NCBI RefSeq assembly: GCF_024168825.1
Contig: NZ_JALJWH010000001.1
Span: 992,001 to 1,056,000, forward strand
Length of the DNA stretch: 64,000 nucleotides
Reading direction: 5' to 3'
Origin: Paenarthrobacter sp. A20
GTDB taxonomy: Bacteria; Actinomycetota; Actinomycetes; Actinomycetales; Micrococcaceae
Shown: piece by piece, positions 28,082 to 54,962 of the stretch
Numbering within the stretch: position 1 is the first letter of the stretch
How the letters are laid out: the number at the start of each line of letters is the position of its first letter
Position numbers and translations under genes: made by a program
Notes under the pieces: generated by a model
Database searches by the model: none
What the model was told of the DNA's origin: nothing
The model's input: the letters and a program-made list of their open reading frames with translations, nothing else

Positions 28082-28739
28082 CAGGTTGCTGCCACGCTGC
28101 AGCGACCCCCAGCGTATGTGTCCGATGTGACCTACGCAACATTGCGACGGCGGGGCTGGCCTGGGTGCGGCCACCCGTTTCGCAAGGTGGGCGGGTGCAA
28201 GCGGCCACCAGCCGGGCCACTATGTCCGCAGCGTGGATATGGGCTCGTGGCCCACAATCCAGCTGTCCCGGAAGTTGTCTTAGTGACAGCTGTTTGAAGG
28301 GGATGTTTTGGGACAACATACGGGACGGCAATGTTACGCGGACGCTGGACGGGGATTTCATCAGCCCCGACCGCGTCTGAATGCATGCGCAAAGCCGCCT
28401 GCACGGCATGGTGCGACGGCAGGAATGCTGCGAATGGCCCCGAATCCGCAAATGGGCGGTGTCCCACCAGGAGTGTCCCAGTTCCAAGGATGTGGGACGG
28501 TTCAATGACGGCACTTTAACCGCAAGGAGCTCTGCGCCCGCTTCTCTACCCTAGGAGCGGGAGTTTGAAGTTCAACCCTGTCACGCGCTGGGACGACTGC
28601 CTGCCGGGACTAACGTCCCTTCCGTCCAATGTCATCAGAGCGCCGATGGCTGACCCCGACTTCTCAACGATGAGGATAACTTCGCGGGTCGGAGGTTCGG
28701 GGGAGCAGGTATTTACCCTAGAGCATCACATTGCTAGTC
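28082..28739. other. Long intergenic region without a clear gene
   Basis: About 650 bases between the small protein and the SDR gene. Several open frames cross it, but none has both a ribosome site and protein-like composition. It contains one copy of the GTGTCCCA palindromic repeat (28459-28500) and ends at the TTGTCTGACAA operator. It may mark the left edge of the accessory catabolic block. Confidence 0.5.
28459..28500. repeat. Dispersed GTGTCCCA palindromic repeat, copy 1
   Basis: GGTGTCCCACCAGGAGTGTC leads into CCAGTTCCAAGGATGTGGGAC: two direct GTGTCCCA units, the second pairing with TGGGAC across a short loop. The same arrangement recurs at 48804, 51412, 52906 and (short form) 53589. 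Confidence 0.7.
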
Positions 28740-48541: not shown

Positions 48542-48787
48542 ATGTGCGGCAGATACGTGATGTCCAAAGCAACAAGCGACCTTCTGAGCCACTTCGATGC
48601 CAAGGAAGTTGAAGGCAACCCACCGGGGCCGAGCTGGAACGTCGCCCCCACCCAGAACGTGCCGATCGTAGCCGAACGCTTAGACGAAGGAGCCCTTGAC
48701 CGGCGCCTCCTGATCGCCAAATGGGGTCTGGTGCCGTCCTGGGCAAAGGACACCAAGATCGGCTCCAAGCTTCTCTGCACTAACTGA
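48542..48787 (+). pseudogene. Truncated SRAP/YedK (HMCES-like) peptidase
   Basis: 81 codons. MCGRYVMSKATSDLLSHFDA has the catalytic Cys2 of SRAP proteins, which form a protective thiazolidine crosslink at abasic sites in single-stranded DNA. WNVAPTQNVPIVAER and AKWGLVPSWAKDTKIGSKL follow as in the family, but full-length proteins continue with an INARSE motif and 140 or so more residues. Here the frame changes to LCTN and stops, next to the palindromic repeat at 48804. The missing part is not found at the other end of the island. It is probably inactive. Confidence 0.85.
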
Positions 48788-48803
48788 TCATCAGCAATTG
48801 GGC

Positions 48804-48848
48804 AGTGTCCCATCGAGGAGTGTTCCACTTCTAAGGAAGTGGGACATG
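48804..48848. repeat. Dispersed GTGTCCCA palindromic repeat, copy 2
   Basis: AGTGTCCCATCGAGGAGTGT is followed by TCCACTTCTAAGGAAGTGGG and ACA. It lies 17 bases after the end of the cut SRAP gene and marks the left boundary of the island. Confidence 0.7.
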
Positions 48849-48967: not shown

Positions 48968-50209
48968 ATGGGAAAACCTTCACGCCGTGAGAACCGACGG
49001 AACCGAAAGAAGGACCGCCAAGTTCCCCTTAGCGGGCTGAAAGTTGCTGTCGCTACGACTCCTGGTTCGTCTTCCTCGCTGTCGGTGGTAAAGGAACTCG
49101 AGCTTGTGAAAGCGGCGGTTCTCTACGCTGACCAGGTGAGTCTCCTAAGCCCTGTGGCTGCCCTGACCCTCGGCGTGCACCAACTTACGATTTCTGATGA
49201 TGAACAGCTGCTGGATTTCATGTTCAGTTTGGACGATAGAACCCTTAGCAGGATCGGCGTCAGCCAGCAGCATTCCGAGGCTCTTAACCCGTTACGGAAG
49301 CTGACGTCACATTACGGATCTGCTCACCTGGCGGGCATACGGGATTCCACACTCACTTACGAAGATGCTAGAGACATGCTGTCACGGGATACAGGCCAAG
49401 AGGCCTTGAACAAGATGCGGCAGGACCTCCAGTCCGATCTAGGCCTCCGTGGCGGGACGGAGCTGCAACTTGGTGTTGCCTCGGGGCTCGTCCAAGTGTC
49501 CGACGGAAGCCTCCCGGTTGATATCACGTCTAATGATGAGCTGATAAGAATTTATGTCGACACACTGGTAGGCATGCTCCGCGATCCATCGACCCACCTG
49601 ATCTTTGATGACTCAACGGGGACGCTGGTCCAAGCCTTGATCGACGGAAACAAAATCAGTCCAGATGCTCTCTCCCTTGCTCACTCAAAGAATGTGTCGG
49701 TAGGAAGCGGCCTCATCCGCAAGCTTCCTGCCCTCACGTCGGCACCGATGGACGAAATCCTTGACCTTCGCCGAGAGGCAAACGGTTCTCTGAGCAGATA
49801 CCGCCGGGCCGTATCCAACCTCACCCCGAAAATCGCTTCGGCAGCGTTTGGTTCTGACTTCAACGAAGAAGTAAACGACCTGTGGTTAAGGGAAGTCGAA
49901 CCAGCCATCGACGAAATCAAAGAGACCCTGGCCGATCACACCCTCGTCCGAGAAGCTGCCCGTCATCTTTCGATCGATCTCAAGAGTTATGTCTTTGCCG
50001 CCACGGGGCCATTCGTGGCAGTCGGAGTGCAGACCCTAGGCACTCTGGACACCTTGATGACAGCGGCTCTTTCGGCCACACCAGCCGCACTAGCTGGAGT
50101 GCAATTGCTCGCCGGAGCTGATCGAGATCGCCGAGCAGGACTCAAACAGGCGCAGAAAAGCGATCTTTTCTATCTCTATGATCTTGGGTCGAGACTCAAA
50201 TCTCGCTAG
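48968..50209 (+). CDS. Protein of unknown function, first gene of a pair with a PIN-like nuclease
   Basis: 413 residues. The N-terminus is very basic (GKPSRRENRRNRKKDRQ), perhaps nucleic-acid binding. A segment with alternating charge follows, including VKAAVLYADQVSLLSPVAAL. The part from about 255 to 335 (MDEILDLRREANGSLSRYRR, EVNDLWLREVEPAIDEIKET) looks like helical coiled coil. Near the C-terminus, residues 335-385 (SYVFAATGPFVAVGVQTLGT, AALSATPAALAGVQLLAGA) are hydrophobic and could insert in a membrane. I do not recognise the family. The third codon position is visibly richer in A/T than in neighbouring chromosome, which suggests transfer. Confidence 0.7.
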   Translation: MGKPSRRENRRNRKKDRQVPLSGLKVAVATTPGSSSSLSVVKELELVKAAVLYADQVSLLSPVAALTLGVHQLTISDDEQLLDFMFSLDDRTLSRIGVSQQHSEALNPLRKLTSHYGSAHLAGIRDSTLTYEDARDMLSRDTGQEALNKMRQDLQSDLGLRGGTELQLGVASGLVQVSDGSLPVDITSNDELIRIYVDTLVGMLRDPSTHLIFDDSTGTLVQALIDGNKISPDALSLAHSKNVSVGSGLIRKLPALTSAPMDEILDLRREANGSLSRYRRAVSNLTPKIASAAFGSDFNEEVNDLWLREVEPAIDEIKETLADHTLVREAARHLSIDLKSYVFAATGPFVAVGVQTLGTLDTLMTAALSATPAALAGVQLLAGADRDRRAGLKQAQKSDLFYLYDLGSRLKSR

Positions 50210-50273
50210 GGCATCTCTTCAGAAAGTCTGGACCTGTTTGTGGCGGTCGAGGTGAGCATGGAAGGTAGTTGTG

Positions 50274-51374
50274 ATGGATGGATCTGGTGGACGACCGCTT
50301 GGACGTCCTGACGTCGCGCCCGTGGATCTGGTTTGGCCTCCGGATCTGCTGCCGCCTTCAAGACCGCCAGCGTTGCTCTATCTGGACCTGAATCATTGGA
50401 TCGGACTCTCTAAAGCGCGGTTGGGCCGGGAGACTGGAACCCGGTATCAGCCATTGCTTGAAGCTTTGCGGCTGGTCATCGAAGGTCGCAGGGTTAGGAT
50501 TTTGCTGTCGGGTTCCCTTGTCCAAGAAATCTCCGCAATCCGGGATCCTGGCCAGAGGGAGCACCTGGCCGCGGTGATTGAGGAACTCACTGAGTTTGAG
50601 TACTTAGCGGGACTTGTTGATGTAAGAAAACTTGAGCTACAGGCGGTCATGGATGCCATGACCGGGACACGCGGTCTTGGTCATGGGCCTGTTCAACTGA
50701 TAGGGAAATCTCTCCTTCATTCATTTGGAATGGTCGGCGGCCTGCGGGTCGTCGACGCAAATGGTGAACCGATGGCCGTTGGAGCCCAAGATCGCCAGCG
50801 TCTCGCTGGGCTTGAACGGATCGCGGAAAAGATGTTTGTAGCCGGCCCGACTGATGACGAGGTGTCTGGACTGCAGGAATTGGGCTACGCACCCGAGATC
50901 CCAAGAGATGCTTTGGTAACCAACGCTTTGATTGAGCAGAATTTCGCGGATAGCCAGTTGAGCGAAACGTGGCGCCGCGGGCGTCTCCGTGACGTACTCA
51001 TAGCCCGTGAAGTAAATCTGGAGCTGAACGAGATGCTCGGAACGGAGTTGCATGCCAGAGGACTGAGTCTTGCAGACGTAGCAACGAGCCTTCCCGAGGC
51101 CAGGGGGCTTGTTCTTAGCATGCCGAGCAGCTGCGTGGTGGTGGAGATGAAAACCTCTTATCATCGAGACTCACGTAAGAGATGGACGATCAACGACCTT
51201 CACGACATCAGTGCCATGTCTCTTGCGGTTCCATATTGTGACATCGTATTCACCGATGCCGCGGCGCGTGACGCACTCAGGAGAGCCAAGTTACACGAAC
51301 GAATGAACACTCTTCTACCTCGAACGCCGGAAGAACTCCGCGAGATTCTGCAGGGACTGCCGGGGAGCGGTTAA
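50274..51374 (+). CDS. PIN-like domain protein, putative nuclease
   Basis: 366 residues. ALLYLDLNHWIGLSKARLG near the N-terminus supplies the first acidic residue (Asp38). The C-terminal stretch TINDLHDISAMSLAVPYCD then IVFTDAAARDAL holds further acids (Asp308, Asp311, Asp323, Asp328). This first-strand D and C-terminal ND..D...YCD..FTD arrangement is typical of PIN-like RNases. It lies 64 bases after the 413-residue gene on the same strand. The pair may be an effector with a sensor or antidote; this is inference. Confidence 0.7.
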   Translation: MDGSGGRPLGRPDVAPVDLVWPPDLLPPSRPPALLYLDLNHWIGLSKARLGRETGTRYQPLLEALRLVIEGRRVRILLSGSLVQEISAIRDPGQREHLAAVIEELTEFEYLAGLVDVRKLELQAVMDAMTGTRGLGHGPVQLIGKSLLHSFGMVGGLRVVDANGEPMAVGAQDRQRLAGLERIAEKMFVAGPTDDEVSGLQELGYAPEIPRDALVTNALIEQNFADSQLSETWRRGRLRDVLIAREVNLELNEMLGTELHARGLSLADVATSLPEARGLVLSMPSSCVVVEMKTSYHRDSRKRWTINDLHDISAMSLAVPYCDIVFTDAAARDALRRAKLHERMNTLLPRTPEELREILQGLPGSG

Positions 51375-51411: not shown

Positions 51412-51454
51412 TCATTCCCAGCAGGGTGTCCAGGTACCAAGGGAATGGAACATC
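51412..51454. repeat. Dispersed palindromic repeat, divergent copy 3
   Basis: CATTCCCAGCAGGGTGTCCA, then GGTACCAAGGGAATGGAACATCC. It keeps the GTGTCC-like unit, the central CAAGG and the TGGAACAT end of the family, but has several changes. It follows the PIN-like gene by 38 bases. Confidence 0.45.
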
Positions 51455-51482: not shown

Positions 51483-51839
51483 GTGTGTTCTTTGTTTTTT
51501 TGGGGCTACCCGGATGCTCTGCGCCAGGGCTGCGGTGCCAAGCCAAAGTGGACTCTATTCAAATTGACATTGCCTGTACCGGTAACAGACGTGAGTTTGG
51601 AGAACTTTGGGTACAGTTTTCAGTGTTGGGCCGATGGTGCGGCGCAGGTGGACAGGACGACGCCCGGGTGGCGTCTGAGTACAGAGCGATTCTGGTCAAT
51701 ATCACTGGAAGCTATCGCCCGCCGGCTTGCCCAGCCAGACGTGGCGTGCCTCGTAGAGGAGCCCTCGGTAGATGCCGGGTTGGAACGTCAACCTCCTGCG
51801 GCGCAGCCGGCAATCGGTGGAACCGCAGGAGGTTACTAA
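51483..51839 (+). CDS. Possible small ORF of unknown function
   Basis: About 118 codons from a GTG at 51483. The internal stretch TLFKLTLPVPVTDVSLENFG and FWSISLEAIARRLAQPDVAC looks protein-like, but there is no ribosome site, and the end runs through the inverted repeat that appears to terminate the TIR gene. It could be the remnant of a larger gene. Weakly supported. Confidence 0.25.
   Translation: MCSLFFWGYPDALRQGCGAKPKWTLFKLTLPVPVTDVSLENFGYSFQCWADGAAQVDRTTPGWRLSTERFWSISLEAIARRLAQPDVACLVEEPSVDAGLERQPPAAQPAIGGTAGGY
51790..51834 (-). terminator. Hairpin after the TIR-domain gene
   Basis: AACCTCCTGCGG at 51790-51801 and CCGCAGGAGGTT at 51823-51834 are exact reverse complements (12 base pairs) just beyond the TIR gene stop codon. 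It can serve as a terminator. Confidence 0.6.
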
Positions 51840-52585
51840 ACCCGGCGGGTGCGCAGGTTGCTATCAATCCGTGCGCCAAGGCTGCGGAGCTCACGGATAA
51901 ATCTGTCGAATTCTTGATGTTGTGCAGCGCCAGGTGAAGACAATTTGAAGCTAGACCGGGCGGCTCGTGGGCTGACCACCCTGAGCGTCGTGCGCGCAGG
52001 GTTCCACCGGACCCGCCAACCTTGGGCCACAAGATTGTTTTCCAAGGTTTCAAGGTCATTGCTGAGGTGCGGGCGGTTGGCTGAAACAACCGTCGTTAAC
52101 GAAACAGTCTCCCGAACTGCTCGTGGCCCTCTTCTGTGTATCTGATCGCCGAGCGTCATCACAGCAGGGCGGAGGGCAGATCTAAGGTTGCCGTCTGAAC
52201 GAGCCGCGCTGTACCGGGCCTGAGTAATCCCTGCAAGATCCGATGGGAGCTTTAGGGAAACTCCGTTCGGGTGGACCATATAGGTTCGGTCCTTGCCCAA
52301 GGCGCCTACGAACAAGCCCAGCTCAAAAATGACATTGTCGCGCGGCGCCTGAAACAACACCTCTCTGCTTTCGACGGCATCGTCAGGGCTCAGAACCAAG
52401 ACGGCGTAGTCGACAGACTTTGCTTGCTCCATCAAGCCATCGAGCACATGAGTGCCGACGTCGAACACGCCCTGAGTCCAGACCGTGGACTCAATCGAGC
52501 CCATCTCCTCGAGGCCTACAGCCAACCGCTCGGCCACGTCCTTGCCTTCGCTGGAAGAACCGATGAACACACGTGAGACAGTCAA
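51836..52585 (-). CDS. TIR-domain effector, CAP12/Pycsar-type (PF10137-like)
   Basis: 249 residues. The first 130 residues are the TIR-like nucleotide-binding domain: SRVFIGSSSEGKDVAERLA, WTQGVFDVGTHVLDGLM, DYAVLVLSPDDAVES and PRDNVIFELGLFVGALGKDR, with the probable catalytic Glu88 in NVIFELG. Such domains cleave NAD+ in CBASS, Pycsar and related anti-phage systems. The last 110 residues (MTLGDQIHRRGPRA to SLGARIDSNLRTRRV) are not recognised and may bind the activating signal. No cyclase is in the window. The start is a TTG after AGGAGG, closely following the small ORF at 52591. Confidence 0.82.
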   Translation of the reverse strand: MTVSRVFIGSSSEGKDVAERLAVGLEEMGSIESTVWTQGVFDVGTHVLDGLMEQAKSVDYAVLVLSPDDAVESREVLFQAPRDNVIFELGLFVGALGKDRTYMVHPNGVSLKLPSDLAGITQARYSAARSDGNLRSALRPAVMTLGDQIHRRGPRAVRETVSLTTVVSANRPHLSNDLETLENNLVAQGWRVRWNPARTTLRVVSPRAARSSFKLSSPGAAQHQEFDRFIRELRSLGARIDSNLRTRRV

Positions 52586-52755: not shown

Positions 52756-52905
52756 ACAAGGCAGATTACTTTACGGCCGAATGTAAGGGTGCACTTCCCT
52801 CGTGCCCTGCGAAGGTGTTCCGTGTTCCGGTTCCGGGGATGTGGGAGGCCGGTACGTCTCGGTGGGCAACCCGCAGCACAAGGATCCACCTGGATCTCCA
52901 CAGGG

Positions 52906-52950
52906 GAGTGTCCCACTAATGGTGTCCCACTTCTAAGGATGTGGGACACC
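52906..52950. repeat. Dispersed GTGTCCCA palindromic repeat, copy 4
   Basis: GAGTGTCCCACTAATGGTGT, then CCCACTTCTAAGGATGTGGGACACC. This is the most regular copy: GTGTCCCAC pairs with GTGGGACAC around TTCTAAGGAT. The surrounding 250 bases (52756-53018) contain no gene that I can support. Confidence 0.75.
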
Positions 52951-53018
52951 GAAACCGCAATGGAGCAGGGAGGCCCGATTAGGGTGATTTCCTAGCGAGT
53001 AAGAAGGCGCGAGTACAT

Positions 53019-53534
53019 TTACATGTCCTTGCGCTGGCCGCCAATCTCTAGCCAGCTCCTCAAGGTCCCTTCCCGTACGAACCCGCTGCGCTCGGCTGCG
53101 CGCCAGGAGCCCTCATTCCAAGGCTCGACGTAGAGTTCCAATCGCTGAATCCCGGGTTGCGCAAGACCCCAGACGGCGAGGGCAGCTAAAGCAGAGGAAG
53201 CAGCTCCCTTCCCACGATGACTTGGCGCCACCCAATAGCCAATGCTCGCCCGGCCCTGGCTGAGGTTCTTCAGCCACAGCCCGATTTGGCCAACCGCCTG
53301 ATCGGAGGAGGAATCAGCAATAGCGAAGGAGTACCCGGTGCCATCAACTAGGCGTTGGTGCTGTCTTTCGATGAAGGCCAGAGCTGCCTGGCGTGAACCG
53401 CTGGCGGGAACTGTCGTGATGGCAGGAATTAGTGGATCGCGCGAGGCTTCCTGGACCACAGGAACATCGGCTGTCGTAAACGGACGGAGCCTGTAAGGGG
53501 GCGCAACGAGTACAGGCTGCTCCAAGGGGTTCAT
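53019..53534 (-). CDS. GNAT family N-acetyltransferase (RimJ/RimL type)
   Basis: 171 residues. YRLRPFTTADVPVVQEASRD opens the fold, the acetyl-CoA loop is in WVAPSHRGKGAASSALAALA, and LELYVEPWNEGSWRAAERSGF is the second conserved block, with GTLRSWLEIGGQRKDM at the end. Family proteins usually go on MYxYxLL after KDM. Here a TAA follows, then ATG TAC and the in-frame MYSRLLTR, so one base change may have removed the last nine residues. Likely still active. The ORF starts at ATG 53534 after CCTTGGAGCA. Confidence 0.85.
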   Translation of the reverse strand: MNPLEQPVLVAPPYRLRPFTTADVPVVQEASRDPLIPAITTVPASGSRQAALAFIERQHQRLVDGTGYSFAIADSSSDQAVGQIGLWLKNLSQGRASIGYWVAPSHRGKGAASSALAALAVWGLAQPGIQRLELYVEPWNEGSWRAAERSGFVREGTLRSWLEIGGQRKDM

Positions 53535-53588
53535 TCTCAGACTCTACGCGGAGCCCCCATAGCAGCGTTCGAGATACCGAAACTGCCA

Positions 53589-53618
53589 CCGTCCCACTCC
53601 CAAGGAAGCGGAACATCC
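53589..53618. repeat. Dispersed palindromic repeat, short copy 5
   Basis: CCGTCCCACTCCCAAGGAAG, then CGGAACATCC. It has the second unit of the family (GTCCCACT), the central CAAGGA and the GGAACAT end. It marks the right side of the island. Confidence 0.5.
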
Positions 53619-53642
53619 GGATGACCTAGGTCAGGGAAACGC

Positions 53643-53689
53643 CAAGTGCCGCCGTCGTACTTCTACATGAAGTACGACGGCGGCACTTG
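53643..53689 (-). terminator. Long perfect hairpin after the DJ-1/PfpI gene
   Basis: A 20-base arm (53643-53662, beginning CAAGTGCCGCCG) is fully complementary to the arm at 53670-53689, around a loop of seven. It is downstream of the DJ-1/PfpI gene and may work as a terminator. Confidence 0.6.
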
Positions 53690-53710
53690 CCGTATGTGCC
53701 TCGGTGGCCG

Positions 53711-54277
53711 CTAAGCGGTCTGGCCAGCGTGCTGCCCCTCGGAGATTTCCTCCACGAGCTTGCTATTGAATGCCGGGAGGTCGTCCGGGTTGCGGCTGGT
53801 GACCAGGCCTTGATCGCACACCACTTCTTCGTCGGTCCAGTTGGCGCCGGCGTTCTTCAGGTCCGATTGGAGCGTGTGGTACGACGTGACGTTGCGGCCC
53901 TTGATCACGCCGGCGTCGATGAAGATCCACGGTCCGTGGCAGATCGAAGCCACCGGTTTGTGCTGCTCAAAGAAGGCCCGCGTGAAGTTCTGCGCGTCCT
54001 TGTCCACGCGGAGGTTGTCCGCGTTCACGACGCCACCCGGGAGTACCAGTGCGTCAAAGTCGGAGGCGTTGGCGTCGGCCACTGCGAGGTCGACGTCGAA
54101 CGTGTCGCCCTTCTCCACGCCGTTGAATCCCTGGAGCTTTCCTGTGGAAAGCGCTACAAGCGTGGGCTCGCCACCTGCATCCTTCACGGCCTGCCAGGGG
54201 CTGGTGAGCTCAACCTGCTCCACGCCGTCTGTCAGGAGAAAAGCGACCTTCTTGCCTGCGATGTTGTGTTCTGACAT
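53711..54277 (-). CDS. DJ-1/PfpI family type 1 glutamine amidotransferase-like protein
   Basis: 188 residues. KKVAFLLTDGVEQVELTSPW opens the fold, with the conserved Glu; the nucleophile elbow is VASICHGPWIF (Cys about 115) with His following. The ALVLPGGVVNADNLRVDKDA block is typical of PfpI-like proteins, which include stress-linked proteases, glyoxalases and deglycases; the exact activity is uncertain. The ATG at 54277 has AGGAGG five bases upstream. Confidence 0.9.
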   Translation of the reverse strand: MSEHNIAGKKVAFLLTDGVEQVELTSPWQAVKDAGGEPTLVALSTGKLQGFNGVEKGDTFDVDLAVADANASDFDALVLPGGVVNADNLRVDKDAQNFTRAFFEQHKPVASICHGPWIFIDAGVIKGRNVTSYHTLQSDLKNAGANWTDEEVVCDQGLVTSRNPDDLPAFNSKLVEEISEGQHAGQTA

Positions 54278-54470
54278 TGTTCCTCCTCGTTGCGCAGCGG
54301 GGTGCTTTTTGGGCGATACCGCCGCTGTGAGAGTTGTTTGTCTGACCTGTTCCAGCCTAGGTAAGGGCGCTTTAGTAAGCAAGCTGACTATTTCCTCTCC
54401 TAACATTGGATCGATTGCATAACGATCGAATCTCGATAGAATCAGGTTGTTGTTCGATAAAGGAGTTCCG

Positions 54471-54962
54471 ATGGGTAAGCTGACGATCCTCGCATTGCGG
54501 GTTGTGATCGCGATGGTGCTGGCAGGCTCGCTGTTCGTCCAGGTGTGGATGGTGCCGCTGCTTTCTACGGACCTTGTTGAGGTCGGTGCGCCCGACGGTC
54601 CGCGGATTACGCTGCTGGTGATTGTGGTTCTGGGAATCCTCTGCATGCAGGTAGTTGCGGTCTGCGTGTGGAGGTTGCTGACGATGGTGCGCCGCGGGAC
54701 GGTGTTCTCCCACGGGGCTTTCCGGTTTGTGGACATCATCTTCGGGGCTGTATCTGTGGCCGCACTGCTGATGTTTACGATTGCGGCGCTGCTGGCTCCG
54801 GGCGACATTGCGCCCGGTGTTGTTCTGCTCATTTGCGGCGCTGCGTTGATGATCGGGGGAGTGGCTCTTCTGGTGCTGATCTTGCGTACGCTGCTGGCCC
54901 AGGCCGTTGCGCGTGACGTTGAGGCTGCTGGCTTGCGGGCCGAGCTCGACGAGGTGATCTGA
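54471..54962 (+). CDS. DUF2975 membrane protein
   Basis: 163 residues with four hydrophobic segments (ALRVVIAMVLAGSLFVQVW, LLVIVVLGILCMQVVAV and others) and a conserved TVFSHGAFRFVDIIFGAV patch between the second and third, as in DUF2975 proteins. AAAGGAG is five bases before the ATG at 54471. Its TGA overlaps the ATG of the HTH gene (TGATG). DUF2975 and YozG-like HTH pairs are common and may form a membrane-tethered regulatory unit. The function is unknown. Confidence 0.85.
   Translation: MGKLTILALRVVIAMVLAGSLFVQVWMVPLLSTDLVEVGAPDGPRITLLVIVVLGILCMQVVAVCVWRLLTMVRRGTVFSHGAFRFVDIIFGAVSVAALLMFTIAALLAPGDIAPGVVLLICGAALMIGGVALLVLILRTLLAQAVARDVEAAGLRAELDEVI

Follow-up and report, generated by a model that had tools for sequence, protein, structure and literature searches.

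Integrons hold arrays of gene segments between attC sites that share one orientation, and they use a tyrosine integrase. The sites of the Hin and Gin invertases are laid out as 12+2+12 bp with a central CCAAGG or CTAAGG. In Acinetobacter, pdif (or dif) modules are gene segments lying in rows on chromosomes and plasmids and bounded by short recombination sites; these modules are ascribed to the tyrosine recombinases XerC and XerD, and C/D and D/C sites alternate (PMC12907356). Here we describe two adjacent genes, gene 1 (an uncharacterised family) and gene 2 (a PIN-like nuclease), in 64,000 nucleotides of DNA from Paenarthrobacter sp. A20 (NCBI RefSeq assembly GCF_024168825.1, contig NZ_JALJWH010000001.1, positions 992,001 to 1,056,000 of the forward strand). 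This whole stretch is called the window, and all positions below are counted within it. A first-pass annotation had suggested that the genes might form an abortive-infection or toxin-antidote pair in which the gene 1 protein senses or restrains the nuclease. We think it fairly probable instead that they are unrelated passengers of a serine-recombinase cassette system, gene 2 being an independent PIN nuclease. The genes, their neighbours and the recombination-like sites around them are:

Site 1: 48800..48846 (palindrome 48821-48846), + strand, left boundary of the segment with genes 1 and 2, E 8.7e-13
Gene 1: 48968..50209, + strand, open reading frame (ORF) with an ATG start, 413 residues, uncharacterised family
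Gene 2: 50271..51374, + strand, ORF of 367 residues from a GTG start or 366 from the ATG at 50274, PIN-fold
Decayed candidate copy of the site: 51427..51452, + strand, lying after gene 2 and before the TIR gene, differing from the IUPAC consensus at 5 positions
TIR-domain gene: 51836..52585, - strand, 249 residues, CAP12/Pycsar-type TIR (PF10137)
Site 2: 52903..52951 (palindrome 52923-52948), + strand, bounds the segment on the right and the GNAT cassette on the left, E 4.6e-14
GNAT acetyltransferase gene: 53019..53534, - strand, cassette gene, found in the same bounded DNA block in other genomes
Site 3: 53588..53617 (core 53590), + strand, degenerate, right boundary of the GNAT cassette, E 1.5e-4
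Further copy of the site: 28454..28501 (palindrome 28474), + strand, 20 kb upstream, E 2.1e-12

Both ORFs are present as first described, i.e. co-directional on the + strand and 61-64 bases apart depending on the start of gene 2. The ATG start at 50274 gives the 64-base gap and shifts the residue numbers by one, so that the Asp38 and Asp328 of the earlier annotation are Asp39 and Asp329 in the GTG-start numbering used here. They are not chance ORFs because both proteins have relatives elsewhere: protein searches, each scoring roughly 8000 best candidates, returned, at E<=0.001, 77 proteins related to gene 2 and 11 related to gene 1, lists that include the window's own or near-identical copies, and the number for gene 1 rose to 37 at the same threshold when an alignment was used as the query. 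Pfam, PADLOC and NCBIfam gave nothing meaningful for either protein, the lone weak Pfam row for gene 1 being MitMem_reg (E 0.032), far under the family cut-off. The G+C content at 48-53 kb is 0.56-0.57, compared with 0.61-0.66 in most other 2-kb windows; a second dip, to 0.57-0.60, lies at 33-41 kb.

If the two proteins worked together as proposed, their families should be found together. In 76 gene 2 loci (up to 8 kb per side; 57 of them with at least 2 kb on both sides and 19 with less than 2 kb on one side or the other) gene 1 profiles gave no match at E<0.1, and a wider gene 1 profile gave a single match below E=1, at chance level (E 0.82). Conversely, the gene 2 profile found nothing at E<1 in 21 gene 1 loci, which represent 12 distinct places. 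Among 198 genomes of the genus, each family was present in the window's genome and three others, and they were co-present nowhere but in the window's own genome. Plasmid records gave the same picture, five with gene 2, eight with gene 1 and none in common, and in a sample of the class gene 1 relatives were found in 6 of 394 genomes, own genome counted. A functional pair is therefore unsupported, and rare co-occurrence is the outcome that the first-pass annotation itself had named as refuting. Since the families were not found together, neither gene, judged by these counts, is dependent on the other in evolution.

The pair could alternatively be a toxin-restraint or abortive-infection operon that was assembled recently in this lineage and moves as one cassette. 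The two genes do share a strand and a short gap inside one site-bounded segment, each has some relatives in the vicinity of TIR, SIR2 or restriction genes, and the closest copies (89-90% for gene 1, 94% for gene 2) are on metagenome contigs, outside the co-occurrence counts. We nevertheless regard such an operon as unlikely, given the lack of co-occurrence in the gene 2 loci, the 12 gene 1 places, the genus genomes other than the window's own and the plasmid records. The adjacent TIR gene, and the TIR, SIR2, OGG-like or restriction genes around some relatives, make a role in defence plausible; no enrichment of defence-type genes near the relatives over more distant neighbours was shown.

What genes 1 and 2 do share is their place between copies of one site. 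A repeat search showed that gene 1, gene 2 and the TIR gene stand between copies of an imperfect direct repeat, and the core of this repeat is a 26-bp palindrome of 12+2+12 layout, TGTCCCACTTC(T/C)AAGGA(A/T)GTGGGACA. In many copies the core is a perfect hairpin, and in many a half-site precedes the palindrome, giving a site of about 46 bp; the copy at 48821 also matches the other strand weakly, being palindromic. A sequence model, R1, built from 47 copies that all come from outside the window's genome, finds the four copies listed above with an E value, at the values given there. The copy at 51427 was not found by R1 and is a candidate only, although no match with up to 6 mismatches occurred in 300 kb of shuffled control sequence. 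If it is accepted, the window would hold an array of three segments, i.e. (i) gene 1 and gene 2, (ii) the TIR gene and (iii) the GNAT gene; otherwise the array would consist of two, with the TIR gene in the first segment.

The site recurs across the genus. Its pattern was found with at most 3 mismatches in 44 of the 198 genus genomes, the reversed control pattern being absent among the matches listed, and R1 placed sites in 98 of the 198 at E<=0.01, a count that includes the training genomes (the training copies came largely from the surveyed genus genomes and partly from the recombinase loci described below, with only the window's genome kept out). The site also occurs on 19 plasmid records: 13 from Arthrobacter, three from Corynebacterium, two from Paenarthrobacter and one from Pseudarthrobacter.

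Examination of the plasmid copies linked the site to a small serine recombinase. Two plasmids, one from Arthrobacter and one from Paenarthrobacter, have the palindrome about 130 bp upstream of a gene for a 'recombinase family protein', in opposite orientation. A plasmid from Corynebacterium has it about 280 bp upstream of the gene for a more divergent recombinase, in the same orientation. The Arthrobacter and Paenarthrobacter recombinases and that of a third genome are 81-85% identical mutually; the Corynebacterium one is 37-40% identical to them. When the 198 genomes were searched with the Arthrobacter recombinase (E<=1e-60), 33 matches turned up in 27 genomes. Of the 30 loci returned, 19 have the site in opposite orientation to the small serine recombinase and 104-110 bp upstream of it, measured from the edge of the model match to the first matched codon; at one of these 19 loci both strands score equally. 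A palindromic site beside the recombinase gene, as in res and hix systems, is thus found at these 19 loci; at the remaining 11 no site was detected there at E<=0.01. The window's genome contains three resolvase-family genes and no recombinase of this subfamily at E<=1e-60, so the window's array may by now have lost its mobility or may rely on a recombinase acting in trans.

Several traces support the idea that segments are bounded and exchanged at this site. Among the 150 sites listed (more exist), adjacent copies within 15 kb of each other point the same way in all 32 pairs, which come from 20 genomes and are not independent, many cassettes being related by descent; pairs more than 15 kb apart are mixed (11 same, 6 opposite). 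The GNAT gene has close copies, at 91-96% protein identity, in seven other genomes. In five of the seven, the DNA homology of the GNAT block (88-93%) runs from 52903-52922 to 53605-53618, i.e. its two ends fall inside sites 2 and 3 or at their edges. The sixth has the same left boundary, with homology continuing rightward, and in the seventh the gene alone is common and there are no sites. The stretch that the sixth genome shares with the window at 96% identity covers at least 3.3 kb, from site 2 as far as 56258; the homology ends in site 2, and beyond it stands a different segment with a 126-residue ORF and another site. One chromosomal position therefore holds different cargo. In two further genomes the sequence to the right of site 3 is present (86-88%), the homology beginning at 53619 and 53637, i.e. 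2 and 20 bases to the right of the site; in both, other genes intervene before the last detected sites, 2.5 and 3.5 kb off. Immediately to the left of site 1 is the following feature:

SRAP-domain gene fragment: 48542..48787, + strand, covering roughly positions 1-76 of the 214 in the profile, on the left flank of site 1

A homologous left flank is found before another three copies of the site, of which two are on other replicons of the window's own genome. The four share 67-87% identity, and the right flanks of these copies have no mutual similarity.

A different origin for the palindromic repeats has to be weighed against these traces, namely that they are the ends of transposons or insertion sequences (IS), leftover transposon resolution sites, or hairpin terminators by genes. 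Several observations count in its favour. Many copies have a core that is a perfect hairpin, and the plasmids concerned commonly carry IS genes. At locus L160 genes for a resolvase, a Mu-type transposase and an AAA ATPase lie 0.8-3.8 kb before the site, and at locus L165 two transposase genes, one of them of ISL3 type, are 2-3 kb away from sites; these transposase genes also weigh against a cassette system. Transposon ends, however, would face each other, whereas all of the close pairs point alike. Nor would this origin agree with the fixed distance of the repeat upstream of one serine recombinase family, with a GNAT block whose homology starts and stops at sites, or with a 12+2+12 layout and central CCAAGG/CTAAGG as in invertase sites. 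We therefore consider this explanation rather doubtful as a whole, although the transposase genes near some copies mean that the site may have begun as a transposon resolution site. At L160 (136-3961) the resolvase, Mu-type transposase and AAA ATPase genes stand in a row with an exact copy of the site 0.8 kb further on, and this row is a possible source of the site-recombinase pair.

The cassette interpretation is also opposed by the surroundings of the two families elsewhere. Relatives of genes 1 and 2 are mostly not beside the site, which was found near only 2 of 21 loci (12 for gene 1 and 9 for gene 2), at distances of 2.5 and 5.7 kb. The gene 1 and gene 2 families are therefore not obligate cassette genes.

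Under the cassette interpretation, both genes would be cargo of a segment lying between same-orientation, 26-bp hix/res-like sites with an upstream half-site, and would be neighbours because they are carried together in this segment. Members of the small serine recombinase family that has the same site upstream of its own gene would excise such segments, presumably as circular intermediates, and insert them at existing copies of the site, and repeated insertion would build arrays like the one proposed here. Gene 2 would act as a PIN nuclease without gene 1, its activity perhaps curbed by its own insert or by low expression, and gene 1 would be an unrelated accessory protein. For the Arthrobacter group as a whole, we judge the evidence evenly balanced on whether there is an integron-like or pdif-like system run by small serine recombinases, in which dispersed, same-orientation sites of about 46 bp, located on chromosomes and plasmids, exchange cassettes of about 0.6-5 kb that include nuclease, TIR and acetyltransferase genes, the window holding a short array at one chromosomal insertion point. 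If this is correct, the exchange of site-bounded segments would not be limited to the tyrosine recombinases of integrons and Xer modules, and an enzyme of the resolvase/invertase type would be exchanging cassettes in a group of soil bacteria, linking their plasmids and chromosomes. It would also caution against taking adjacent defence-like genes in such arrays for functional partners.

Each of the described systems resembles this arrangement in part. Integron cassettes likewise have same-orientation sites between segments, but the gene linked to the site here is a small serine recombinase and not a tyrosine integrase. The sites of the Hin/Gin invertases and of Tn3-type resolvases share the 12+2+12 palindrome, the central CCAAGG/CTAAGG and the position just upstream of a recombinase gene; here, however, the copies are dispersed and bound many cargo genes, whereas those systems serve one inversion or one transposon. 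We considered pdif (Xer) modules as an identification and rejected it, as the orientation does not alternate (32 of 32 close pairs alike) and the site is a 12+2+12 palindrome. The pdif modules are similar in that short sites bound gene segments in rows on chromosomes and plasmids, and differ from the present hix/res-like site with its serine recombinase link and close copies in one orientation (PMC12907356). None of the papers listed by our literature search described this site, or cassettes moved by serine recombinases in this bacterial group. The nearest published concept among them is the Xer dif/pdif module, from which the present system would differ in enzyme and in site orientation (PMC12907356).

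The assignment of gene 2 to the PIN-like nucleases, made in the first-pass annotation from its acidic residues, is upheld by a confident predicted model (predicted local distance difference test, pLDDT, 95). The best structural matches of this model are PIN and protein-only RNase P domains: nine of the first 15 rows are named PIN, VapC or protein-only RNase P, and the other six we take to be PIN. Foldseek alone gave no significant match for the model. Two features of the predicted protein stand out:

Helical insert of gene 2: about residues 115-285 (~170 residues), splits the PIN core, from the predicted model
Predicted active site of gene 2: D39, E86, D312 and D329, from alignment A4 and the model

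The quartet is acidic throughout A4, with D39 kept in 67 of 67 relatives, E86 and D312 each in 68 of 68, and D or E at position 329 in 68 of 68, where the counts take those of the 68 aligned relatives with a residue at the position. The predicted fold and the conserved acidic residues together support gene 2 as PIN-like, probably a stand-alone PIN-fold nuclease for which RNA would be the likely substrate to cleave. Gene 2 represents an additional PIN-fold family, one with no entry in Pfam, NCBIfam or PADLOC; it spans several bacterial phyla and, by profile, archaeal contigs too.

Compared with VapC toxins and the PIN domain of SMG6, gene 2 is distinguished by its insert, owing to which its chain is about 2.5 times the length of the VapC chains among the structural matches. 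It also differs from VapC in having no Pfam, NCBIfam or PADLOC family and no recurrent neighbour fit to be an antitoxin. The immediate neighbours of gene 2 relatives vary between loci, no conserved small gene of the VapBC antitoxin type was found beside the relatives among neighbouring ORFs of at least 60 residues, and no Pfam family occurred more than twice among 148 of their 285 near-neighbour ORFs (those of 110-900 residues).

HARP, the minimal protein-only RNase P, has a PIN core split by a helical insert. It is the best structural row for gene 2 (7og5, 8ssg, 8kda), whose core is likewise interrupted, and PRORP, another protein-only RNase P, is also among the best rows. Gene 2 might on these grounds be an ordinary RNA-processing enzyme, RNase P-like or another housekeeping PIN protein, and not a toxin or defence nuclease. 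We find this quite improbable: gene 2 is sporadic, occurring in 3 of the 197 other genus genomes, which argues against a housekeeping role, and by sequence it matched no NCBIfam family at E<=1 and, in the PDB, no HARP at E<=10. Among the relatives, one that is 65% identical, in the same genus (locus L101, 4385-13348), is flanked by SIR2_2-domain and OGG-like genes on one side and on the other by a 1613-residue gene that looks helicase-like by eye; a divergent relative at locus L103 lies beside a similar large gene.

For gene 1, the basic tail, helical middle and hydrophobic C-terminal region noted in the first-pass annotation were all seen, the first at the N-terminus of the sequence and the second in a low-confidence model (pLDDT 62.5) with an N-terminal alpha/beta part, for which no fold could be named. 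The C-terminal hydrophobicity is moderate: the best 19-residue Kyte-Doolittle mean is 1.48, at residue 363, below the usual 1.6, and the same stretch scores 1.6-1.8 in some relatives. The family alignment (A3, 30 sequences) has a conserved N-terminal motif, VAT-x-P ... LVKAAVLYAD, a central RLP ... DLR block, and the C-terminal hydrophobic stretch followed by LFYLY. With hhalign, the gene 1 profile aligned collinearly with two actinobacterial DUF6236 proteins at residues 259-409 (E 4.5e-4, probability 33%), and the same DUF6236 profile gave nothing against gene 2. One of 30 gene 1 relatives matches DUF6236 (PF19749) weakly (E 0.08); the window protein has no match and the relatives fall below the Pfam cut-off. 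This likeness of the C-terminal part, which rests on two DUF6236 sequences, suggests that gene 1 may be a distant DUF6236 relative. Our literature search found no paper on DUF6236.

Some gene 1 relatives have neighbours resembling those in the window. On plasmid pA of Paenarthrobacter ureafaciens (locus L104, 4223-9161) and at locus L098 an SRAP gene, a TIR gene and a gene 1 relative lie close together, with no site, which echoes the window's SRAP fragment, gene 1 and TIR gene. At L098 a ThsB-type TIR gene is near the gene 1 relative. The window's own TIR protein matches CAP12/PycTIR models, its C-terminal part being unmatched, and reads as a stand-alone protein, no search for a neighbouring cyclase having been made.

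Other site arrays were seen around the genus. On the second replicon of the window's genome (locus L115, 6222-11072) four same-orientation copies lie about 1.5-1.8 kb apart with ORFs between them; two are degenerate, one with 6 mismatches, and the arrangement is like that of a plasmid-borne array. At L165 and at locus L168, in the same genus, a small, secreted-looking 126-residue ORF lies beside sites and is perhaps a further cassette that recurs. The ORFs surrounding loci come from a simple longest-ORF rule, and some of them are spurious. To the right of site 3 the window continues with two features:

Near-perfect 25-bp inverted repeat: 53639-53693, with a 5-base loop, perhaps a terminator
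DJ-1/PfpI-family gene: 53711-54832

The DJ-1/PfpI region directly adjoins a site array in L168, and in L161 and L162 the last detected site is 2.5-3.5 kb away from it, which suggests an insertion hot spot.
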